The notes under the pieces: generated by a model | Seen by the model: only the letters and a program-made list of their open reading frames with translations | What the model was told of the DNA's origin: nothing | Databases searched by the model: none | Made by a program: the position numbers and the translations under genes | Part shown: positions 20,709-52,240 of the stretch, piece by piece | Position numbering within the stretch: position 1 is the first letter of the stretch | Layout of the letters: the number at the start of each line of letters is the position of its first letter | DNA from: Pseudodesulfovibrio aespoeensis Aspo-2 | GTDB taxonomy: Bacteria > Desulfobacterota > Desulfovibrionia > Desulfovibrionales > Desulfovibrionaceae | Assembly: GCF_000176915.2 (NCBI RefSeq) | Contig: NC_014844.1 | Location: 1,736,001 to 1,800,000 of the forward strand | Reading direction: 5' to 3' | Length of the DNA: 64,000 nt

Positions 20709-21131
20709 TCAGTCGGTGGTGAAGCCGAACTGGCGGCGCTGCTCGGCCCAGTCCTCGGGAAAGGTCTGGGTCAGCTTGGCCAGAGAGAGCCCGTTGGGTT
20801 CCTCACCGTTGATCAGGGCTTCGACGATGTCGGGGGCCAGAGTCGTCAGCTTGAGGATGCGGGCCACATACGAGCCATCGACGTCGAGGGTACGGGCAAG
20901 CTCGCTGATGGACTTGATCTGGCCGGATTCGAGGATGTCGGCCCAGGAAAAGGCCCTTGCCAGAGCCTGGAGGACGGCGGACTGTACCGGCTCCTGCGCC
21001 CCGGGGATATCTCCATCCAGGGCCTGGGGAGCGATGACCGTCTTGCGGCCGCGCATGCGCCGGATCAGCATCGGGATGTGGATCTGCAGGTTGCCGTTGT
21101 CGGCTACGGTAATGGTCGGCTTCATTTTCAT
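20709..21131 (-). CDS. HTH protein of KorB/ParB type, recombinase-associated
   Basis: 140 aa. Residues ~75-125 read IKSISELARTLDVDGSYVARILKLTTLAPDIVEALINGEEPNGLSLAKLTQTFPEDW (broken family pattern), a helix-turn-helix of the KorB/ParB class. The N-terminus is a short beta-rich segment. The ATG at 21131 overlaps the recombinase stop (ATGA), so the two are coupled. It is probably an accessory DNA-binding factor or directionality partner of the recombinase; this role is inferred from position only. Confidence 0.65.
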   Translation of the reverse strand: MKMKPTITVADNGNLQIHIPMLIRRMRGRKTVIAPQALDGDIPGAQEPVQSAVLQALARAFSWADILESGQIKSISELARTLDVDGSYVARILKLTTLAPDIVEALINGEEPNGLSLAKLTQTFPEDWAEQRRQFGFTTD

Positions 21132-22714
21132 CGGCTTACCCTCCGTTCGGTGACTTCGCATGCCAGACCAGCCAGCTCGGCGATGAGTGTTGTCAGCCCG
21201 TTGGTGCGCAGCTCCATATCGATTCCGGTCTCCCGGATCTCCACCTTATCCACCAGGAGGCGGATGAGCCGGTTTCGCTCCACCGGGAAAAGGTCTTCCC
21301 AGAAGCCCTCGACATTCTGGAAGGCCTCCGAGACATCCTGTTCCGTGATGCTGTTCCCCCGGTAGGCTCTGCAGCGCTCGCTCACATGGGTCAGTTGTTT
21401 CGAGAGCTCAACCGCCTGGCGATTGACCGTCGTCAGCATCTCAGTCTTGCCCGGCTGATCGCTGCCGGGTTTCATTAATTCGAGAGCCTGCTCCCGCGCC
21501 TGCGACAGCTCCATCTCGAGTTGGGCTTTCTGCTTGAACAACCGCTCCCGCTCTGCCTGCTCGATGTCCCGGGCCGCGAAGTAGGTCTTGGCCACCAGCG
21601 TCGGTGTGCGGAACACGGCGCTCAACTGCTCAATCACGGCCTGCTCGATGTCCCCGGCGGGAATCCGTTTGAGCGGGCACCGGCTCACGGTCCGCTTGCT
21701 GTCCTTCTGACAGATGTAATAGGTGTAATGGCGGCCGTTCTTGCGGGCGTAGGTCGGCCCCATCGAGCAGCCGCAGTGGCCGCAGCGGATGACGCCTTTC
21801 AGCGGGGCGACCATTTTGGTTCTGGCCATGGAAACCTTGACCGGTTTGTTGTCCTCCAGGATGGCCTTAACCTTGTCCCAGGTCGCCCGGTCGATGATCC
21901 CTTCGTGCTCACCAGGGTAGCTGCGATCCTTGTGGGCGATCTCGCCGATATAGATCCGGTTGTTCAGCAGCCGGTAGATATGGGCGGTGTTCCATTCGGA
22001 GCCCTCGCGCACTTTGCCTTTCTTGGTGGTCCAGGCCTTGGTGCGGTAACCCTGTTCGTTCAGCTCTTGGCCCAGCTTCTTGGCCGAGCCGATCTGGATG
22101 AATCGGCGGAAGATGTACTGCACCGTTCTGGCTTCATCGGGGTTGATCAGCAGCTTCTTATTTTCCCGGTCGACGTCGTATCCGATGATGGGCACGCCGC
22201 CGCAGTATTTCCCCCGGCGCTTGGCTGCCGCCACCTTGTCCCGGATACGTTCGGCGATGACCTCCCGCTCGTACTGGGCGAAGGTAATCAGGATGCCGAG
22301 AAACATCCGGCCGGTGGGATCGGTGGTGCTGAAGTGCTGGGTGACCGAGACGAAGCTGACACCCTTCTCGTTGAAGAGGTCGATCATCTTCATGAAGTCC
22401 AGCAGCGAGCGGGACAGCCGGTCGACCTTGTAGACGACGATCACATCGATCTTCCCGGCGTCGATGTCCGCCAGCAGGCGGCGTAGCCCCGGACGCTCCA
22501 TGTTCCCGCCCGAGAAACCACCATCGTCGTAGCGATCCGGCAGAGCCGTCCAGCCACGCATTCTCTGGGCTTCGATATAGTGTTCCGCCGATTCCCGTTG
22601 CGCATCCAACGAGTTGAACTCCTGTTCGAGACCTTCCTCGTGGCTCTTGCGGGTGTAGATGGCACAGCGCAGCGTCTTGTTCTTTCCCGGCGCGACATTG
22701 CTGTTATCAAGCAT
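21128..22714 (-). CDS. Large serine recombinase (putative prophage integrase)
   Basis: 528 aa. The N-terminal resolvase domain has the nucleophile motif AIYTRKS and RLSRSLLDFMKMIDLF, followed by the recombinase domain (GYDVDRENKKLLINPDEARTV pattern). Then comes a zinc ribbon CGHCGCSM...YYIC...C, a coiled coil around residues 385-440 and a C-terminal arm. Large serine recombinases integrate and excise temperate phages and mobile elements. It sits at the left end beside ssrA, the expected place for an integrase. It overlaps both neighbours (DUF2924 gene, HTH gene), forming one leftward operon. Confidence 0.88.
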   Translation of the reverse strand: MLDNSNVAPGKNKTLRCAIYTRKSHEEGLEQEFNSLDAQRESAEHYIEAQRMRGWTALPDRYDDGGFSGGNMERPGLRRLLADIDAGKIDVIVVYKVDRLSRSLLDFMKMIDLFNEKGVSFVSVTQHFSTTDPTGRMFLGILITFAQYEREVIAERIRDKVAAAKRRGKYCGGVPIIGYDVDRENKKLLINPDEARTVQYIFRRFIQIGSAKKLGQELNEQGYRTKAWTTKKGKVREGSEWNTAHIYRLLNNRIYIGEIAHKDRSYPGEHEGIIDRATWDKVKAILEDNKPVKVSMARTKMVAPLKGVIRCGHCGCSMGPTYARKNGRHYTYYICQKDSKRTVSRCPLKRIPAGDIEQAVIEQLSAVFRTPTLVAKTYFAARDIEQAERERLFKQKAQLEMELSQAREQALELMKPGSDQPGKTEMLTTVNRQAVELSKQLTHVSERCRAYRGNSITEQDVSEAFQNVEGFWEDLFPVERNRLIRLLVDKVEIRETGIDMELRTNGLTTLIAELAGLACEVTERRVSR

Positions 22715-44823: not shown

Positions 44824-45686
44824 TGCCATCGGACCTCAAGCAGCGCATCCAGGACACCACCCTGAAAAGCCTGACGGCCCGCAACCGCTATAACGACCAG
44901 GTCACGGCCCAGCTCACTCAGGCGCTGAAACAGGCCGAAGACGAGGTCGCCCGCGCCATTCTCCAGTACCGCTCCCTCGGCTCCCTGCCGGACAACAAGC
45001 TGGCTGCATTGAAAGGTCTGGAGAAACTGCAGGGCGAGCTGGACGATGTTCTGCGCCAGTTGAAACGGGATCAGACGCTTGTCTTCCGTAAAAGCACCAA
45101 GGATGCTTTCAAGGGCGGCATCGCTCAGGGTATTTCCGAGCTGACATCCGCATCGCTGCCTTTCTATGCCGACCTCAAGCCTGATAGCATCGACAAGCTG
45201 GCCACAAAGGTGTTCACCATCGTCGACACCAATGCCCTCGACTTCATGACGCAGTACAACCTCACGCTTGCCGGTGACGTAAACCGGGAACTGGCCGACG
45301 GAATAAAGCGCGTCATCATGCAGGGAATAATAGAAGGAAAAGGAACGGATGATATTGTCCGGGACCTCGGACGGGTTGTCATTTACAAAGACTCTTTCAA
45401 ACAGGCCGGAACAAAAGTCTTCAGCAAGGCGCAGTACCGAATGGAAATGATCGCCCGGACTGAGGTGTTGCGGGCACACAACATGGGGCGAATCAAGTTC
45501 CACCAGCATGTCGGAATTGAGAAGCTGGAGTGGATGACCATGGGGGACGAGCGAACCTGTCCGGTATGTGGTCCGCTCGATGGTAAAACCTTTCCAATTG
45601 ATAAATTCCCGGGGCAACCGGCACACCCATTCTGCAGGTGCACCAACCTTCCTGTGTTGAGTGATATCAAACTGAAAAATATTTGA
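44823..45686 (+). CDS. Head morphogenesis protein (SPP1 gp7 / Mu F-like)
   Basis: 287 aa. The C-terminal half carries the family signature: MIARTEVLRAHNMGRIKF, then MTMGDERTCPVCGPLDGKTFPID and HPFCRCTNLPV, which form a Cys/His metal site. Minor head protein needed for capsid assembly and DNA injection in relatives. Starts at the portal stop. Sequence composition becomes more AT-rich toward its end, which borders the inserted AT-rich cassette. Confidence 0.87.
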   Translation: MPSDLKQRIQDTTLKSLTARNRYNDQVTAQLTQALKQAEDEVARAILQYRSLGSLPDNKLAALKGLEKLQGELDDVLRQLKRDQTLVFRKSTKDAFKGGIAQGISELTSASLPFYADLKPDSIDKLATKVFTIVDTNALDFMTQYNLTLAGDVNRELADGIKRVIMQGIIEGKGTDDIVRDLGRVVIYKDSFKQAGTKVFSKAQYRMEMIARTEVLRAHNMGRIKFHQHVGIEKLEWMTMGDERTCPVCGPLDGKTFPIDKFPGQPAHPFCRCTNLPVLSDIKLKNI

Positions 45687-45694
45687 GACGCCAT

Positions 45695-45726
45695 TCCGAC
45701 ACATTTCAAAGCCTTCCGGTAAGTAA
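45695..45726 (+). promoter_or_regulatory. Phage two-block promoter-like motif, copy S5
   Basis: TCCGAC, 14 bp, TCCGGTAAGTAA. It begins 9 bp after the head morphogenesis stop and 27 bp before the small ORF at 45754, and marks the left edge of the AT-rich cassette. Confidence 0.75.
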
Positions 45727-45753
45727 TCGCTGAAACCATAATGAGGAAAGTCT

Positions 45754-45882
45754 ATGAATTACAAAAACCACTTGATTGCAAACATGAAAGTCGCCATTAG
45801 ATGTTTTGTATTAATGGTGTTCCATACCTTGCACGGAATAATTCCCTGCAAATATACAAGCCATGATTATTGGGGGATTTGA
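45754..45882 (+). CDS. 42-aa small phage protein
   Basis: Begins MNYKNHLIANMKVAIRC and ends HTLHGIIPCKYTSHDYWGI, with a hydrophobic centre (FVLMVFH) and two Cys. The ribosome site GAGGAAAG lies 5 nt before ATG 45754. It directly follows motif S5 and is the only rightward gene before the leftward RiPP operon, whose last gene it overlaps by 16 bp at the 3' ends. Its codon use is AT-rich like the cassette. Function unknown. Confidence 0.6.
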   Translation: MNYKNHLIANMKVAIRCFVLMVFHTLHGIIPCKYTSHDYWGI

Positions 45883-47186
45883 CTGCTCAGGAAATAAGGA
45901 GTTCCGTTATCCTTAATTTTACGCAGCATTTTAATTCTTTTTAATTTTTGAAATTTTGAAACGAAATCACTCTTAAATGCCATGAGTTCACTTTTTGAAT
46001 ACTTGGATAACCCGTTTTCAGAGCAAGAAAATAGGTGAATTTTCCCTTCTTTCACTTTGTCCGGCAATCCTTCATATAGTTCCGAGCCTATCATGTAATC
46101 CAGCAACTTAACATTTACATCATCAAAACGACTATGGATTGCATAATTAAGTGATTCTTGAATCGTCTCTTCATCGTCATCAGGTGCACCTACAATGAAA
46201 TTACCGATTGTAAATACACCCACTCGGTCGGCTTCTTCTAAAATTTCATCCAACAATTTAAAATCAATACTTTTTTTATAATAGTCTAAGATGCTTCTAT
46301 TCTTGGATTCTACGCCAAAGCTGATGACTGAGACCCCGGCTTTTTGTGCTACAGATATGAACTCCTTGTCGATTTTTGCCCAAGAACTAATCGCAATTTT
46401 CAAGCTATGAGTTCCCTTCAATTCGGCAAATTTGTTCAAGATTTTTTTTGCTCGTCCAAGGTTCGCAGTGAAGTTTTCATCAGTGATCCAGATATTATTT
46501 ATCCCAGAGAAAATTAATTCCTGAAAATCAGTGTAAATCTTTTCTTCACTGAAAAACCTAAGCTTTTTGTCCCACCCTTTACGTTGGCAAAAAGAACAGC
46601 TTCCAGGGCAGCCTCTACTTGTTTCCAGTAATGCAGAAGGGGCTAAGTGTGCTTTTTTGTTTAATCGCTTACCCTTTATTTGTTCCTCATCCAATAGTTG
46701 CCTGTCTGCAAAAGGTACTCTTGATAAATCAGCTATTGTTCCCAGGCTGATAAAATTATTCTTTATTTCACCTCCTGCGAGAAATCCATTAATGATTCTT
46801 GGAAGTTCAACTTCTGGCTCACCGGAAACCGTGAGATCAAAGACCGGAATAGATTCATTAACAAGAGTACAATGTTTTCCTATTGCAACGGTTAAAACCT
46901 CATCTCTGTACTCTTTTGTTAATTGAGCAATCTGGAAGCCGTTGGATACATTTGCGGATCTTTTTAAAGGAAAAGCATCAAGCTCAACAATTACACAATC
47001 AATATTGTCGATACTTTCATGAAATTTTTGCTCGTCAAATTTCTCAACAGAATAGTCAACAAATTTTACCTTAAAATCCAAATCCTTAAGTGAAGAGGAT
47101 AGGTATAAAAGCTGCAGTGAGTAGCCAAACCGATGGTCTTTATCAAAATCGGGTTCGGGATAAACAAGAAGGATTGATTTATTCAT
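45867..47186 (-). CDS. Radical SAM enzyme with B12-binding-like N-terminal domain
   Basis: 439 aa. The first ~150 residues have the Rossmann-like layout of cobalamin-binding radical SAM proteins (SILLVYPEPD, VKFVDYSVEKF, VIVELDAFPL) but lack the DxHxxG cobalamin motif. The iron-sulfur motif RGCPGSCSFC has C193, C197 and C200. The SAM-fold follows, with WITDENFT, FGVESKNRSILDYYKK and GNFIVGAPDDDEETI. It is the last gene of the leftward RiPP operon and probably carries out a late modification (methylation, cyclisation or rearrangement). The reaction cannot be told from sequence. Confidence 0.82.
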   Translation of the reverse strand: MNKSILLVYPEPDFDKDHRFGYSLQLLYLSSSLKDLDFKVKFVDYSVEKFDEQKFHESIDNIDCVIVELDAFPLKRSANVSNGFQIAQLTKEYRDEVLTVAIGKHCTLVNESIPVFDLTVSGEPEVELPRIINGFLAGGEIKNNFISLGTIADLSRVPFADRQLLDEEQIKGKRLNKKAHLAPSALLETSRGCPGSCSFCQRKGWDKKLRFFSEEKIYTDFQELIFSGINNIWITDENFTANLGRAKKILNKFAELKGTHSLKIAISSWAKIDKEFISVAQKAGVSVISFGVESKNRSILDYYKKSIDFKLLDEILEEADRVGVFTIGNFIVGAPDDDEETIQESLNYAIHSRFDDVNVKLLDYMIGSELYEGLPDKVKEGKIHLFSCSENGLSKYSKSELMAFKSDFVSKFQKLKRIKMLRKIKDNGTPYFLSSQIPQ

Positions 47187-48003
47187 TTACAGTTCCAAGG
47201 TATTCATTGAGCCTTTTTAATGCATGTAAGCCCCAAGAAGCACCGTCCTCAATTTCATGAAATGCCCATATCCCATTCTTCAATTGATTGTCTTCCAGCC
47301 ATTTAAGTGTGTTTTTGAATAGATCAACTGGGACCATGTCTTTATGTCGCAACAATCCCAAGATGGCGATCGACGTACAAAAAACATCGCTTGCGACTGG
47401 GTGTTCTTTCCAAGGAGCAAAGCTTCCATCTTGTCTTTGATTCATGGAAAGCCATGAGACTGTATCGCTTATTATTTTGCTGTCCTGCGGAACATATTCA
47501 CTGGAAGAGAAAGCCATTAAAGTGTAAGCAGCTTTGTATGTAAGCGAGTTTATTTCTGATTTCCATAACTCTTCTAATTTTTGCAAATAACATTGTTTTT
47601 GAAGTTGGGGGATCATATCCAATAAAAGCCCCGATACCGGAATCCTTGACATATCCCTGGAAGACCGTCCCCATAAACCACTTTTGTTCGTGTTTGCTTC
47701 CAGATAATTTATTCCATTATCAATAATCTCTTGATGTGTATTTTTATCATAAAGAGATAGGAAAACGACGTTCCAGATAGTGTCTGTGATAGCAACCCAA
47801 CCCCCATCTTCATTCTGTTCATTCTTGCAACGATCAATAATCCACTTGGGTATACTACTGGGTGAAAGTCCAGACATTAATAACAGGCTGGCGGTCTTGG
47901 TAATTCGTCGTAACTCTAACTCTTTGGCCAACATTTCCTTGAGCATAGCTCGCAAAGAAGTAGTAGCCTTTAACACGGATAAATTTGGTAGTTTATTTCC
48001 CAT
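47179..48003 (-). CDS. Terpenoid cyclase/prenyltransferase-like alpha-toroid protein
   Basis: 274 aa with repeats of the alpha6-alpha6 toroid: NEDGGWVAITDTIWNVVFLSLY, NKSGLWGRSSRDMSRIPVSGLLLDM, RQDGSFAPWKEHPVASDVFCTSIAILGLL and LKNGIWAFHEIEDGASWGLHALKRL. These QxxDGxW-like repeats occur in squalene/hopene cyclases and prenyltransferase beta subunits. The catalytic DxDD of hopene cyclases is not seen. It could act on a prenyl group or serve as a peptide-binding scaffold. It overlaps both neighbours in the operon (8 and 11 bp). Confidence 0.75.
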   Translation of the reverse strand: MGNKLPNLSVLKATTSLRAMLKEMLAKELELRRITKTASLLLMSGLSPSSIPKWIIDRCKNEQNEDGGWVAITDTIWNVVFLSLYDKNTHQEIIDNGINYLEANTNKSGLWGRSSRDMSRIPVSGLLLDMIPQLQKQCYLQKLEELWKSEINSLTYKAAYTLMAFSSSEYVPQDSKIISDTVSWLSMNQRQDGSFAPWKEHPVASDVFCTSIAILGLLRHKDMVPVDLFKNTLKWLEDNQLKNGIWAFHEIEDGASWGLHALKRLNEYLGTVNE

Positions 48004-49102
48004 ATTTCATGGTCTCGCTAATGTTTTTGTCTCTATAAAAACAATTAATGGCTCGGATATTTGTTATGCCAAAAAGCCACATTGCTAATCGCTCAATTCC
48101 GAGTCCAAATGATAAGATCTTTATGTTTGGCAATGGATTGAGGTCTACATACCAATTTAGTTGGTCGCACAAATCAAGTTTTTCAAACTTGCAGCGCAAA
48201 AAAGATTCTCTTGTATCTCGTAGGCATCCTTCTGCAACTTCACCCACACCAGGTGCCAAAAAATTCAATGAATAAGTGTATTTGTCGTCAATTGGCAATG
48301 CAGACCAAGTAGAAATTTTCGAAGGAAAATGAATAACCGTAGTAGGGCCGTTTTTTGAAATTTCACGTTCATGCTTTCCAAGTCCTTTATTTAGAAGGCC
48401 GTACTTGCAATTCAAATCGGCATATGAAACGATAGGTATGTCTTCAAATGGCAACGCCTTTATTTGATCAGGAATTATTTTACTTACTCTATTAAAAATG
48501 TCTGAGATAAATTTCGATAATTCACAAATCAGATCTTCAAAGCAATGGCCTACAAATGACACTTCCAGCATGTCAAATTCAGAAAGGTGCTTGGAGGTTT
48601 TTGATGGTTCTGCCCTGTAACATCTCTGTATAGAATAAACTTTTCCCATATTGGCAGCCATTACCGTAGAATATAAAGCATTGCTGGATGACAACCGGGC
48701 TTTCTTTCCAAAGAAGTCAATCTCAAAAATATCACCTTTATTATTGCCGGGATGGATGCTGGGCAACCTGACTTCAAAAAAGTTGTTGTCATAAAAATAG
48801 TTTCTTATTTGATTCAGCAATATCGCATAGTTTTTTGCATTTGCTGATTCAGGAATAACGCCCTTGTTGCTTTTCTCTGCGCCAACTAATTCTTTGGCAT
48901 GAATCTCACCATTTTGCTGATTTGTATTTATTGTTATGTAGTCGTTTATTTTTAAGTTTTTAAGCTTATCATAGCCAACTGCTTGGCCGTGTGTCGCGAC
49001 AATATTGAATGTTTCGGCCCCATGAGAAACTGTTATAAAAGTTATCTTCCCCAAACATTTAATGTCTGTGACCATGCCGGATATGAATGATTCGTTTTTC
49101 AC
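47993..49102 (-). CDS. Class II aminoacyl-tRNA synthetase-like protein (Asx/Lys-RS type) in RiPP operon
   Basis: 369 aa, shorter than Asn-, Asp- or LysRS. An N-terminal OB-fold (residues ~5-72, SGMVTDIKCLGKITFITVSH) is followed by the class II core: motif 2 QRCYRAEPSKTSKHLSEFDMLEVSF and motif 3 FGLGIERLAMWLFGI with its Arg. Residues that line the substrate pocket in true AspRS/AsnRS (QSxQ) are replaced by SSSNALY. Two readings are possible: an aminoacyl- or amide-forming enzyme acting on the peptide, or a resistant synthetase copy giving self-immunity. Overlaps neighbours by 4 and 11 bp. Confidence 0.82.
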   Translation of the reverse strand: MKNESFISGMVTDIKCLGKITFITVSHGAETFNIVATHGQAVGYDKLKNLKINDYITINTNQQNGEIHAKELVGAEKSNKGVIPESANAKNYAILLNQIRNYFYDNNFFEVRLPSIHPGNNKGDIFEIDFFGKKARLSSSNALYSTVMAANMGKVYSIQRCYRAEPSKTSKHLSEFDMLEVSFVGHCFEDLICELSKFISDIFNRVSKIIPDQIKALPFEDIPIVSYADLNCKYGLLNKGLGKHEREISKNGPTTVIHFPSKISTWSALPIDDKYTYSLNFLAPGVGEVAEGCLRDTRESFLRCKFEKLDLCDQLNWYVDLNPLPNIKILSFGLGIERLAMWLFGITNIRAINCFYRDKNISETMKYGK

Positions 49103-50310
49103 CCCAATCTCCAGTTTATCATCGTCTTTTTAGGAGTGAACGTTGGCGTGAAGCCTAACTTTTTTGCAATATTGACCATCGGGTCATTGGACGAGTACGT
49201 TTTCATTTCAGCATAACTCAAGGCCTTTGTGACCGACTCAATCAGTAGTCGTCCGATTCCACTGCCACGGGAATTGGCTGGCACGTAGACTTCTTCAATG
49301 AGAGCACCATTCTCTGGCCTGTCACTTTTTCTCAGGAATCCAAGGATCTGTCCTTTGCTGTTCTCTGCTACAAAAACGTGTTTTGGCTTGCGGAGCATCT
49401 GCTTTAAGAACGATGACTTCGCACTTATGGCAAGCAATTTCCTTTCAGGCTCTGATATGCCTTCGAGCATGTTAATGAGAGTGTCGGAGTCATGGTCACA
49501 TGCGCGTCGTATCCAAATGTTATCTGCCTGAAAAAGATGCCGAAAATTTTCACTAAGGATCTTCTTTCTTGAGTCGTCTGAGAGTTTGGAAGATGAGATG
49601 AATTCACACTCGAGTTTGTAAACATCTTCATCCTTGTCTTTGTAAAACGGGAAATCCGATCCCCAAAGAACATGCTCATCTCCCACGAGATTTATTAACT
49701 CCGCAAGACTTGCTCCGTTCGTTCTGATTGTAGACGTCTCAAAGTAGAGATTGCTCCGATTCTTGCTTGCTGCGAGAATATCTTTAACATTGTCAACTAA
49801 GCCTTCATCTGAGAATGGTTGTTTCCGTGCACAATGGGCTATGATCACCTTAAGCTCTGGAAAGTTAGATGAAATTTCAGATATCTTTTTTCGCCATTCG
49901 TTCCTATGGGCATGAATAAGTAAAACTTTCCCTGTTTTCCGAAGGAGATCATAAATGGGAAACATTACGTCATTGGAGATTTCGAGGTAGAAGTGTTCCT
50001 TTATCCCATATATGTTGGTAATGTTGGCCTCTATACTTCTTATGTCATCAGGCAACAACAATGGTAAAATTAATGTCGGTTCCTTTTGTGCACATTCGAG
50101 TATATACTTATTGGCTGATTCCCTTTTTACTTCGTTAAAAGGGAATGGGAATGCAAGGCACTTTGTAACTCCCTTCGCACTACTGACCCTAAGGTAGTTG
50201 CTAAAAGTATTGGCTGTAGCATTATTGTAGGCCGGAAGCGAGCTGTGCCCTTCTTCAATATTTTTAATTTTCGCTACGCCTATATGAACATGGGAATCAA
50301 ATAAAAGCAT
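49099..50310 (-). CDS. Amidohydrolase-GNAT acetyltransferase fusion
   Basis: 403 aa. Residues 1-265 are an amidohydrolase-2/TatD-like TIM barrel with the metal motif FDSHVHIG, later LLIHAHRNEW, VIIAHCAR and LWGSDFPF (metal Asp). Residues ~270-403 are a GNAT domain with the acetyl-CoA loop VPANSRGSGIGRLLIESV. Fusion of these two activities is rare. In this operon it may trim or detoxify the product and acetylate it; both roles are inferred. Ribosome site AAGG before ATG 50310; it follows the precursor gene and its hairpin. Confidence 0.82.
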   Translation of the reverse strand: MLLFDSHVHIGVAKIKNIEEGHSSLPAYNNATANTFSNYLRVSSAKGVTKCLAFPFPFNEVKRESANKYILECAQKEPTLILPLLLPDDIRSIEANITNIYGIKEHFYLEISNDVMFPIYDLLRKTGKVLLIHAHRNEWRKKISEISSNFPELKVIIAHCARKQPFSDEGLVDNVKDILAASKNRSNLYFETSTIRTNGASLAELINLVGDEHVLWGSDFPFYKDKDEDVYKLECEFISSSKLSDDSRKKILSENFRHLFQADNIWIRRACDHDSDTLINMLEGISEPERKLLAISAKSSFLKQMLRKPKHVFVAENSKGQILGFLRKSDRPENGALIEEVYVPANSRGSGIGRLLIESVTKALSYAEMKTYSSNDPMVNIAKKLGFTPTFTPKKTMINWRLG

Positions 50311-50328
50311 TGCATATCCTTAAATGTT

Positions 50329-50364
50329 AACAACCAGCCTCCTTGTGCAAGGAGGCTGGTTGTT
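50329..50364. promoter_or_regulatory. Perfect 17-bp hairpin directly after the RiPP precursor gene
   Basis: Arms AACAACCAGCCTCCTTG (50329-50345) and CAAGGAGGCTGGTTGTT (50348-50364) around 2 bp. On the - strand it begins 7 nt after the precursor stop and has no U run. It is therefore more likely an mRNA stabiliser or partial terminator that raises precursor level relative to the downstream enzymes. Confidence 0.75.
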
Positions 50365-50371
50365 GTTGGTT

Positions 50372-50494
50372 TTAGTTGCAGTTACAGTTAGTGCAACCAA
50401 AACACCACTTACCCTGACAGAACTCAGCCCAAATCTCTTCGGGAAAAGTCATGCCATCGAGCTCTTCAAACACGGGTTCTTCATAAGTGACCAT
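50372..50494 (-). CDS. RiPP precursor peptide, 40 aa, Cys-rich core
   Basis: Leader residues 1-25 are acidic (VTYEEPVFEELDGM then TFPEEIWAE). The C-terminal core reads FCQGKWCFGCTNCNCN, with cysteines at 26, 31, 34, 37 and 39 and Asn at 36, 38 and 40. A perfect AAGGAGG lies 7 nt before ATG 50494. It sits between the PqqD-like recognition gene and the tailoring genes and is followed by a strong hairpin, the standard layout of precursor genes. Cys side chains are usual targets of SPASM radical SAM enzymes. The leader-core boundary is inferred. Confidence 0.85.
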   Translation of the reverse strand: MVTYEEPVFEELDGMTFPEEIWAEFCQGKWCFGCTNCNCN

Positions 50495-50570
50495 TATAAC
50501 CTCCTTGCATTAGGATGTTTTACAAAGGCGAACCTAACCATTAGGCTCTACCAACCCTGTAAACTGCTGC

Positions 50571-50867
50571 TTACTCATTTTCAACAAGAACGCCACTCTC
50601 TGTCCATTTTTCCATAAGACCAGAAAGATCATTGATTAAGATGCCTTTCTCAACCGAGAACTTTTTTGTCAGGTTGTCTACGACGGCAGAGAAGGATACG
50701 TTCTCGGAGAAACTTTCCAGAATGGTAAAGGACGTTTCGTTGAGCTTGAATATTTTCCCTGTTGAAACATTAAAAAGGAAAAAGTCCTTTTCTCCATCAT
50801 TACCCCGGTGCAACATATAGTCATCGGAGAGAATAAAGAATTTGTGCATTATGTCATCAAGGTTCAT
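50571..50867 (-). CDS. PqqD-like RiPP recognition element protein
   Basis: 98 aa. The winged-helix PqqD fold pattern is visible: DFFLFNVSTGKIFKLNETSFTILESFSENVSFSAVVDNLTKKFSVEKGILINDLSGLMEKWTESGVL (family pattern). Such proteins bind the precursor leader and present it to a radical SAM partner. The stop is 76 bp before the precursor start and its ATG overlaps the radical SAM stop, so it is coupled to that enzyme. Confidence 0.88.
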   Translation of the reverse strand: MNLDDIMHKFFILSDDYMLHRGNDGEKDFFLFNVSTGKIFKLNETSFTILESFSENVSFSAVVDNLTKKFSVEKGILINDLSGLMEKWTESGVLVENE

Positions 50868-51916
50868 TGTGATTCTCCTGTTTTATATTTCCAGCATAAT
50901 GGATCTTGCGCTAAATAATCCCCGTTCTCTGCATAAGCAGCAGCCCTGCAACCTCCGCAGCGGCCCAAGTCTTCACATGTGCCACATGAGGATGTCATTC
51001 GATTTTTTCGTCTTATATTCCACAGAATATCTGACTTGTACCAAATCTTAAAAATACCATCGTTAAGTACGTTGCCTATGGGGATAGGTAGCCGCCTGCA
51101 AGGATATGCCGTTCCATCATGCATAATGCATAAACTTGAATAACCGACTGGGCAGAATCCTCCGAGAGATTCATCAATCAGATGCCACAACGGTCGAGAT
51201 GTTCTGATCTTAAGTTTTCTCCCGCTGCTCTCGATCTGTTTTTTCTTCTGCTTAATCTGCTCATAAATTTCTTTTAATCTGTCTGCGGACAGCTTCAATT
51301 GATCAGAATCAGAATTCCCTAAGGGAGTGTAGCGCTCAATTGTTAACGCATCTATCCCCATTCTGTCTGCCAGATCAATGATGTCCGCTACAGATCCTGC
51401 ATTTTCTTGATTCAGAGTGAACATTACGGCAGTGGGAATGCCGACCAAGATAAGTTTTTCTAGACCATTAATTGCTTTGCTGAAACTCCCTTTCCCCCTC
51501 ATAAGGTCGTGAACCTGTTCAGTTCCACCATCAATGGAGATCTGCACCTCTTTCAGCTTCTTAAATTTTGTGAGCTTGGCAATTTTCTTGTCATCTATGA
51601 GAGTTCCATTTGATAAGATCCCAGCCCAGTAGAAAGCCTTATCCTTCTCGATCTTATTAAGGAGATGCAATAGCTTTTCAAATTCAAGAAAGGGCTCACC
51701 TCCTGTAAGTGAAATCCTTCCATTTTTTTTCCATGTTGAAATGGCCTTCGATAATTCAGCATATATTGCATCAAGCTGGGCAACAGGCACAGGTTGAGCC
51801 TTATAATCTTCTTGGTAGCAATGCCGACACCTCAAGTTGCATGATTCCAGAAAATGCCATTGGATATAAAATCCCGAATTCTCAACCTGTGAGGTGTCGT
51901 CAGTTATTTTAGTCAT
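50864..51916 (-). CDS. Radical SAM/SPASM peptide maturase
   Basis: 350 aa. The [4Fe-4S]-SAM motif CNLRCRHC has C26, C30 and C33, followed by SLTGGEPFLE and QISIDGG. The SPASM region holds auxiliary cluster cysteines: FCPVGYSSLCIMHDGTAYPCRRLP, then CGTCEDLGRCGGCRAAAY and DPLCW. This is the architecture of sactionine, ranthipeptide, thioether and related peptide maturases. It is coupled to the PqqD-like gene and acts most probably on the Cys-rich precursor at 50372-50494. Confidence 0.92.
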   Translation of the reverse strand: MTKITDDTSQVENSGFYIQWHFLESCNLRCRHCYQEDYKAQPVPVAQLDAIYAELSKAISTWKKNGRISLTGGEPFLEFEKLLHLLNKIEKDKAFYWAGILSNGTLIDDKKIAKLTKFKKLKEVQISIDGGTEQVHDLMRGKGSFSKAINGLEKLILVGIPTAVMFTLNQENAGSVADIIDLADRMGIDALTIERYTPLGNSDSDQLKLSADRLKEIYEQIKQKKKQIESSGRKLKIRTSRPLWHLIDESLGGFCPVGYSSLCIMHDGTAYPCRRLPIPIGNVLNDGIFKIWYKSDILWNIRRKNRMTSSCGTCEDLGRCGGCRAAAYAENGDYLAQDPLCWKYKTGESQ

Positions 51917-52101
51917 TGAAATTCCTTAAATTTCTTACTTTTAACCCAGACGTCAATCTCGTCCCGGTCAAACCTCCACTGGGTTCCGATCTTGGAACCG
52001 GGCAGCTCGCCTTTTTGGGCCATCTGATAGAGCTTGCTGCGGCTCATTTTCAGATAGCCGGAAAGCTCCTCGATGGTCAGCCATTTGTCTTGTGATTCCA
52101 T
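51913..52101 (-). CDS. Excisionase-type helix-turn-helix protein
   Basis: 62 aa from ATG 52101 (GTG 52110 is an alternative). It has the MerR/Xis-like winged helix WLTIEELSGYLKMSRSKLYQMAQKGELPGSKIGTQWRFDRDEIDVWV (family pattern). Usually a DNA-binding excisionase or repressor. Its stop overlaps the radical SAM start, so it heads the RiPP operon and may regulate it, or it may be a mobility factor carried with the cassette. Its codons are more GC-rich than the genes that follow. Confidence 0.75.
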   Translation of the reverse strand: MESQDKWLTIEELSGYLKMSRSKLYQMAQKGELPGSKIGTQWRFDRDEIDVWVKSKKFKEFQ

Positions 52102-52145
52102 GTTAGTCACCGCTCATCTGAATTCTTAGCAACAAATAATAACAT

Positions 52146-52174
52146 AAAATAACGAATGACAGGCATATTTTCAA
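52146..52174 (-). promoter_or_regulatory. Sigma-70-type promoter of the RiPP operon
   Basis: On the - strand TTGAAA (52174-52169), 17-bp spacer, TATTTT (52151-52146), about 45 bp before the HTH gene. It gives the cassette host-type expression independent of the rightward phage motif. Confidence 0.65.
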
Positions 52175-52240
52175 GCCAAATCTCGGAAACTTCGAGGAAA
52201 TTCCCGGCTGAACCCCGACCGCTGAAATTCACCGTCACCC

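Follow-up and report, generated by a model that had tools for sequence, protein, structure and literature searches.

The precursor gene and its operon

In a 64,000-nucleotide stretch of the Pseudodesulfovibrio aespoeensis Aspo-2 genome (NC_014844.1, positions 1,736,001 to 1,800,000; this whole stretch is called the window), a small cysteine-rich open reading frame (ORF) was identified in an operon of eight genes, which occupies a variable slot of a prophage (Table 1). On the minus strand, from upstream to downstream, the operon encodes an HTH_17 protein, a radical S-adenosylmethionine (SAM)/SPASM protein, a PqqD-family protein, the product of the small ORF, an amidohydrolase fused to a GNAT domain, a paralogue of asparaginyl-tRNA synthetase (AsnRS), a toroid protein and a B12-type radical SAM protein. 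The small ORF is almost certainly the gene for a true precursor of a ribosomally synthesized and post-translationally modified peptide (RiPP). As a whole, the locus is interpreted with moderate confidence as a RiPP family precursor that is carried as cargo of a temperate phage together with a proposed enzyme pathway, of which we infer every enzymatic step.

Table 1. Features of the operon and its surroundings, in window positions (RRE, RiPP recognition element; HTH, helix-turn-helix)
Feature	Position	Strand	Basis
Variable prophage cargo slot with AT-rich RiPP cassette	45647..52202	.	GC drop; sibling homology breaks
B12-type radical SAM protein	45867..47186	-	B12-binding domain weak (E 0.037); PADLOC PDC-M51A E 1.5e-14
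Single-domain alpha/alpha toroid, squalene-hopene/class II terpene cyclase fold	47179..48003	-	Structure model and fold search
AsnRS paralogue, proposed activator of C-terminal carboxylate	47993..49102	-	Adenylate-side residues kept, amino-acid-side replaced
Amidohydrolase (PF04909) fused to GNAT domain	49099..50310	-	Pfam
Hairpin directly 3' of precursor	50329..50364	-	61-base stretch folds at -28.3 kcal/mol; self-complementary BLAST match
RiPP precursor, 40 aa	50372..50494	-	YEEPVF RRE-binding motif in leader; core WCFGCTNCNCN
PqqD-family protein, likely leader-binding RRE	50571..50867	-	Pfam PF05402 34.7 bits, cut-off 23.4
Radical SAM/SPASM protein, likely peptide maturase	50864..51916	-	PF04055, PF13186 above cut-off
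HTH_17 / MAD1-like small regulator	51913..52110	-	Library matches including PADLOC MAD1

The precursor ORF translates to MVTYEEPVFEELDGMTFPEEIWAEFCQGKWCFGCTNCNCN. In agreement with the original prediction, AAGGAGG is found, 5 bases ahead of the ATG, the leader is acidic, and the five cysteines (positions 26, 31, 34, 37 and 39) all fall within the last 15 residues. The window contains 677 small ORFs of 20-120 aa, and no other has at least five cysteines in that range. The YEEPVF motif of the leader fits the consensus [YW]xxPx[LVIAFY], given for RRE-binding leaders of lasso peptides in PMC13381572. With this motif and the PF05402 match above cut-off, the locus has the features of an RRE-dependent RiPP at the sequence level, and it also shows the general RiPP arrangement, in which a gene-encoded peptide with leader and core is accompanied by probable modifying enzymes.

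The original prediction of a precursor with a cysteine core was borne out by comparison of homologous operons. The same ORF, with RRE and radical SAM/SPASM genes adjoining, occurs in four operons, and in the three operons other than that of the window it is kept at the same position together with Cys31, Cys34, Cys37 and Cys39 (C31xxC34xxC37xC39). The claim of five relevant cysteines held for these four and not for Cys26, which is not conserved and is absent from the operon of Candidatus Hydrogenedens (L050). In an alignment of 48 precursors the Tyr and Pro of the leader motif and the four cysteines are invariant, of which Tyr and Pro were not part of the search patterns. A chance Cys-rich reading frame might be suspected, as the ORF is short and no model of NCBIfam, Pfam or PHROGs matched it. 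This explanation is refuted by the homologous operons in distant bacteria and in a viral contig, and its probability is negligible; the leader motif, the position in the operon, the Shine-Dalgarno sequence and the uniqueness among the 677 small ORFs also speak against it.

Counted from the first conserved Cys, Asp or Glu occurs in the core of none of the 48 precursors, and therefore the C-terminus is the only core carboxylate. The window core also contains no His. Fold energies of the hairpin behind the precursor, calculated as single folds with no shuffle control, were -28.3 kcal/mol in the window, -23.1 kcal/mol in Desulfamplus magnetovallimortis and only -3.0 kcal/mol in L050. Possibly, this hairpin sets an excess of precursor over the downstream enzymes.

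Bacterial relatives and the prophage slot

Relatives of the operon were collected from the best 80 matches of a two-row radical SAM scan of genome contigs. In D. magnetovallimortis the same operon continues up to the contig end, with 93-95% DNA identity and a precursor that is 97.5% identical. The two precursors differ by two synonymous and one non-synonymous change, too few to be weighed alone; over seven genes or gene parts dN/dS was 0.10-0.28. The Ca. Hydrogenedens operon is more distant, with identities of 47% for the radical SAM/SPASM protein, 58% for the precursor, 31% for the amidohydrolase-GNAT protein, 47% for the toroid and 40% for the B12-type radical SAM protein. On a Thermodesulfovibrionales contig the precursor, radical SAM, PqqD and toroid genes were found together with an AsnB-like protein. 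Radical SAM relatives at 27-39% identity (L025-L042, L044-L047 and L052-L128) were not accepted as members, as no toroid match was obtained in the DNA examined; in L044-L047 and L052-L128, no fitting small YxxP/CxxCxxC ORF was found.

A sister cluster was identified in genome G386, by a phylum search, and in four genomes belonging to the same order as Desulfamplus. Its precursors end in CRQCSSCHGCR and are encoded beside radical SAM, RRE, toroid and AsnB genes. G386 and G1043 contain the radical SAM, PqqD, precursor, toroid and AsnB-type genes as well as a glycosyltransferase gene; in G1085 the cluster is split over two contigs, and in G1140 and G1218 it is cut by contig ends. The AsnB-type enzyme of G1218 scored 131.9 bits with the lasso cyclase model (cut-off 525) and 331 bits with the asparagine synthase model TIGR01536 (cut-off 267.1), and the radical SAM protein of L174 scored 193.1 bits with ACGX and 154 bits with the SbtM model. 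At two sister loci a protein of ∼1,050 aa is encoded between precursor and toroid (L173:677-3856, with a metallo-beta-lactamase domain match, and L171:6939-10094), and two ORFs are present at this place in L172. Near the cluster in L174, a dGTPase-like protein (L174:3133-5823) matched an anti-phage dGTPase model below cut-off.

The toroid is linked to the precursor. Among 242 genomes of the order of Desulfamplus, all five with a toroid also have a strong precursor match, and a strong precursor match was found in six; in the sixth genome it lies on a 5.7-kb contig without radical SAM, RRE or toroid. Four further, weak matches to the precursor profile among the 242 genomes (E 1e-3 to 7e-3) were treated as chance after inspection. 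Searches for further toroids yielded none beyond the own genome among 347 genomes of the class, and none beyond the one already known in each of the two other phyla, that of the Thermodesulfovibrionales contig (295 genomes) and that of Hydrogenedens (68 genomes). The structure model of the toroid (predicted local distance difference test score, pLDDT, 91.2) has the fold listed in Table 1, with a Z score of 24.9 and a root-mean-square deviation of 2.9 over 256 aligned residues to 2sqc_A, and it also resembles complement thioester domains. A DxDD-type general acid and an isoprenoid substrate are features of class II terpene cyclases; the NCBIfam cyclase models matched the toroid far below cut-off. 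LanC-type enzymes were absent from the best 50 rows of the fold search, which excludes nothing. Since the toroid is linked to the precursors, a peptide-handling role is suggested by the distribution of the sequences.

The genes of the operon have a GC content of 36-48%, whereas the phage genes on either side reach 56-62%. To the left, an integrase (21131-22714), a primase, a terminase, a portal protein and a MuF-like head protein are followed by the island; to the right a DNA methyltransferase fusion protein, the major head protein, the tail sheath and the tail tube are encoded. The flanking methyltransferase protein is present in 13 of 148 related genomes, the own genome included. The matching genomes belong to several genera; in most of them the protein shows 92-99% identity, and in G078 it is more diverged.

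Twelve sibling prophage loci (L243-L254) from 10 other genomes were compared with the window. Their homology to the window ends near 45,647 (in one locus at 45,735) and starts again at 52,203-52,205 (in three loci at 51,953). In 8 of the 12 the slot contains a shared 4.6-kb segment, in three a 3.7-kb segment, for which L248 gave Pfam matches to an Eco57I-type methylase and a BsuBI/PstI endonuclease, and in one LysR/metE/SHMT genes. In L243 the 4.6-kb segment extends the MuF-domain ORF (L243:4243-8820) to 1,525 aa; in the window this ORF has 287 aa and ends at the cassette start. The restriction-modification segment of the three siblings sits behind an HTH gene 88% identical to that of the window, and the window HTH had no match in L049; by this sequence comparison the HTH gene is probably a part of the slot and not of the RiPP gene set. 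As sibling homology flanks the operon, other DNA fills the slot and the toroid occurs only in the own genome, it is concluded that the RiPP operon is an exchanged cargo cassette of the prophage, a setting that the original prediction had not recognised. For the prophage region, no near match was found in the phage collection.

Proposed maturation pathway

In the proposed pathway the PqqD-type RRE would bind the YEEPVF leader and pass the peptide on. Oxidative modification of the cysteines of the conserved CxxCxxC(x)C pattern by the radical SAM/SPASM enzyme would follow. That this enzyme acts on the precursor cysteines is considered probable. Thioether crosslinks, as anticipated in the original prediction, would be the most likely modification, and the chance that the product contains them is put at about even. 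The toroid, too, would act on this peptide, and so would the B12-type radical SAM protein as a possible C-methyltransferase; the amidohydrolase-GNAT protein, possibly a leader peptidase or tailoring enzyme joined to an acyltransferase, would remove the leader and/or acylate the peptide. The AsnRS paralogue may adenylate the C-terminal Asn carboxylate for amidation, ligation or ring closure, and the AsnB-type enzyme of the sister clusters may perform the same C-terminal activation.

Instead of thioether rings, the mature peptide might carry free thiols or Cys-derived ligands and bind a metal or cluster as a metallopeptide, or serve as a redox cofactor. The core of the sister branch, CRQCSSCHGCR, is short and nearly invariant with four Cys and a His, and such invariance would be unusual for a toxin in an arms race. 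The window core, on the other hand, lacks the His, and the radical SAM/SPASM, RRE and tailoring enzymes suggest covalent modification, which makes the metallopeptide unlikely.

With the AsnRS model, the AsnRS paralogue reached 133.5 bits (cut-off 342.6), too low to be classed as an AsnRS. Compared with 20 canonical enzymes, it keeps R163, E165, H172, E180, E288, R295 and R338 and lacks the loop TGxDCEGAGE. In all three paralogues, residues that are invariant in the canonical enzymes are replaced by A142 (from Q) and T146 (from E), and of 165 canonical-invariant positions, deleted ones counted, 115 are not kept in all three. In human AsnRS, according to PMC10831071, the phosphate is contacted by R322, the adenylate by E324 and the Asn moiety by E279; read from the alignment, R163 and E165 of the paralogue correspond to R322 and E324, and K122 replaces E279. 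Because ATP-side residues are retained and amino-acid-side residues lost, adenylation was probably kept while the recognition of free Asn changed, as far as sequence comparison can tell.

The original prediction had also pointed to the Asn-rich tail beside an Asx-type enzyme. This link finds some support, as the precursor ends in Asn in the three operons with an AsnRS paralogue and in Tyr in the one without (n = 4). C-terminal activation is proposed because the C-terminus is the only core carboxylate, the precursors end in Asn and the substrate pocket is changed, and an action of the paralogue on the precursor C-terminus is put forward tentatively. MccB and the AsnB-like amidation of thiopeptides are precedents for C-terminal activation. 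Alternatively, the paralogue could be no tailoring enzyme but a means of self-resistance: the product would poison AsnRS, and the paralogue would be a spare copy of this target. The host does contain a canonical-type AsnRS besides it, and the motif-2 and motif-3 residues are kept. A spare enzyme that forms Asn-tRNA should, however, retain the amino-acid-side residues, and the 115 of 165 positions not kept include the changes to A142, T146 and K122 on that side, so that self-resistance appears quite improbable.

As to function, a role in competition or defence is the favoured guess, held with less confidence than the C-terminal step. It is weakly supported by the restriction-modification system that occupies the same slot in siblings and by the PADLOC models that matched the HTH protein (MAD1) and the B12-type radical SAM protein (PDC-M51A). 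Library scans of the operon proteins with NCBIfam and Pfam gave no match to transporter families. The absence of an exporter match, together with the phage context, suggests that the product is intracellular or released by lysis.

Several observations weigh against the pathway and this role. For none of the best 25 of the 86 NCBIfam families that it matched did the radical SAM/SPASM protein reach the curated cut-off, and its PADLOC matches were viperins only, at superfamily level. At E 0.001, the toroid, the AsnRS paralogue and the amidohydrolase gave no match to any PADLOC model. The structure model of the amidohydrolase-GNAT protein was poor (pLDDT 67.9), too poor for a fold search. The correlation of the AsnRS paralogue with C-terminal Asn rests on four operons of which two are near-identical, and the L050 operon lacks the paralogue, so that the C-terminal step is not universal. 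Finally, the argument from the restriction-modification slot is positional, and the slots of the other nine siblings hold the 4.6-kb segment or the LysR/metE/SHMT genes.

Solitary viral precursors and relation to known systems

With the pattern WCFGCTNC, a single IMG/VR contig was found (L137, 133 kb), which carries the whole operon, including an AsnRS paralogue that is 44.5% identical, ∼10 kb from a baseplate gene. The B12-type radical SAM protein of this contig is encoded by two overlapping ORFs (L137:1027-2339), perhaps broken or mis-assembled. The control pattern WCFGCxxCxC matched 103 viral stretches; among the 102 besides L137, the motif was in frame in only 2, and no YxxP precursor was among these. 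One control match, L301, is a low-complexity Cys-rich frame.

The CxQCxxCHGC pattern of the sister branch was found in 75 viral stretches, in 67 of which it ends a short ORF (27-140 aa). The eight stretches without a fitting ORF are L190, where the frame is closed by stops, and 7 of 20 later loci. The leader consensus [YW]xxPx[LVIAFY] is present in 60 of the 67 ORFs (L145, L150 and L178 counted as misses, L217 as a match), compared with 179 of 4,256 (4.2%) other mechanically called small ORFs of the same loci. The 67 ORFs are not independent: dereplication reduces the first 54 to 42, and the 13 later ones also include near-identical sequences. Solitary CHGCR precursor genes occur at L138-L150, L176-L217 and L357-L376, with no maturases in the DNA searched.

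Of the 42 dereplicated sequences, 39 entered alignment A8. The three omitted are L145, which is short and has no leader, L178, which reads YEKA in place of YxxP, and L217, which has an insertion. The core letters C, Q, C, C, H, G and C are present in all 44 rows, being imposed by the pattern on 39. Independently of the pattern, Tyr and Pro are found in 44 of 44 rows, Phe in 43, Ser after the second Cys in 41 and the terminal Arg in 42. As most letters of the core were set by the pattern, independent evidence comes only from the leader, this Ser and the terminal Arg. At up to 23 of 27 positions the viral leaders match those of host-cluster precursors, the best case being L138 with G1218. The clusters show three leader classes, all of which are represented among the 39 solitary genes compared. 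L364 (EIWKKFAGGRFCMQC) and similar members resemble the window junction EIWAEFCQGKWCFGC, and by this likeness they link the two core types.

Full-length searches of 28 long CHGC records, among them the ORF-less L190, found no radical SAM protein; a 29th record, L137, had one. The locus stretches of the first 55 and the 20 later loci contained no radical SAM, toroid or PqqD match, with the limit that the records may be fragments. Neighbours of the CHGC ORFs include terminase, portal, baseplate hub and tail sheath genes, and therefore at least those contigs are phage sequence. A preference of the solitary genes for terminase or portal genes seemed likely from 18 length-selected proteins but found no support in a control: the terminase family phrog_2 was matched by 5 of 76 immediate neighbours and by 4 of 76 genes elsewhere in these loci (the latter being the part of 280 background proteins that was obtained; counts from the first 25 families of each table). 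Viral sequences gave no match in single-sequence radical SAM and two-row toroid scans, and 14 distant relatives, at best 30% identical, in a five-row radical SAM scan. In phages and plasmids, tblastn with the AsnRS paralogue, radical SAM protein and toroid returned distant or no matches, and tblastn of one viral precursor returned none in the phage collection.

We consider it an evenly balanced possibility that many phages carry a solitary precursor that is matured in trans by the chromosomal radical SAM, RRE, toroid and AsnB proteins of the host, or that jams these proteins, while few, such as the prophage of the window and the 133-kb viral contig, carry the whole pathway. If so, the pathway would be a battleground of phage and host or a shared weapon, and the two branches would activate the C-terminus differently, one with an AsnB-type enzyme and the other with a retooled AsnRS paralogue. 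In a rival reading, the solitary CHGCR genes would be decoys and not substrates matured for the phage; they would occupy the host RRE and thereby obstruct a host RiPP system. The RRE-binding motif kept in 60 of 67, the leaders identical to a host-cluster precursor at up to 23 of 27 positions and the missing radical SAM protein in the 28 long records are consistent with decoys. Yet a decoy needs a leader only and these cores continue to a terminal Arg, a letter outside the pattern that is kept in 42 of 44 rows; pure decoys are regarded as rather unlikely. The lone leader-plus-core gene in dozens of viral contigs raises the question whether phages feed, exploit or block host peptide maturation, and these solitary viral precursors are the part that could be categorically new.

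No description of this RiPP family was found by title and abstract start in the literature searched, which has most subscription journals outside its coverage. This, the lack of a precursor model and the radical SAM scores under the cut-offs of the best 25 of 86 families suggest that the RRE/radical SAM RiPP family is new, and its partners, a terpene-cyclase-fold protein and an AsnRS paralogue, are unusual.

Among the nearest radical SAM/SPASM models are ACGX (TIGR04340), the best NCBIfam match, and the thio(seleno)oxazole maturase SbtM (TIGR04082), with 154.9 and 140.6 bits for the window protein, far under the cut-offs of 400 and 350; the likeness concerns the radical SAM models only. In ranthipeptides and sactipeptides (PapB, AlbA, SkfB, ThnB) a radical SAM/SPASM enzyme and a Cys-rich core adjoin an RRE, as here. 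The window protein stayed below the cut-offs of PapB (96.2 bits, cut-off 340), StsB (91, cut-off 625) and SkfB (76.7, cut-off 300), so that by curated score it falls outside these maturase families and ACGX; the operon further differs by its toroid, AsnRS paralogue, B12-type radical SAM protein and phage slot, and its crosslink is only predicted.

MccB of microcin C, an E1-like enzyme, adenylates a peptide-terminal Asn, and EpmA is a class II synthetase paralogue derived from LysRS that acts on a protein. The AsnRS paralogue is likened to both in activity by analogy, and its origin differs from both. Sublancin in SPbeta is a prophage-borne RiPP cluster; the enzymes differ from those of the window, and in the present family some viral contigs have the precursor by itself. 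Lasso peptides share with the window a discrete PqqD-like RRE and the leader motif, according to PMC13381572, and a further likeness is the AsnB-type enzyme of the sister cluster in G1218, although that enzyme passes the cut-off of the asparagine synthase model and not that of the lasso cyclase. The window core, by contrast, is Cys-rich and has no Asp or Glu for an isopeptide (none in 48 of 48 precursors), a radical SAM enzyme is present and none of the eight operon genes is AsnB-type, which sets the window operon apart from lasso peptides.
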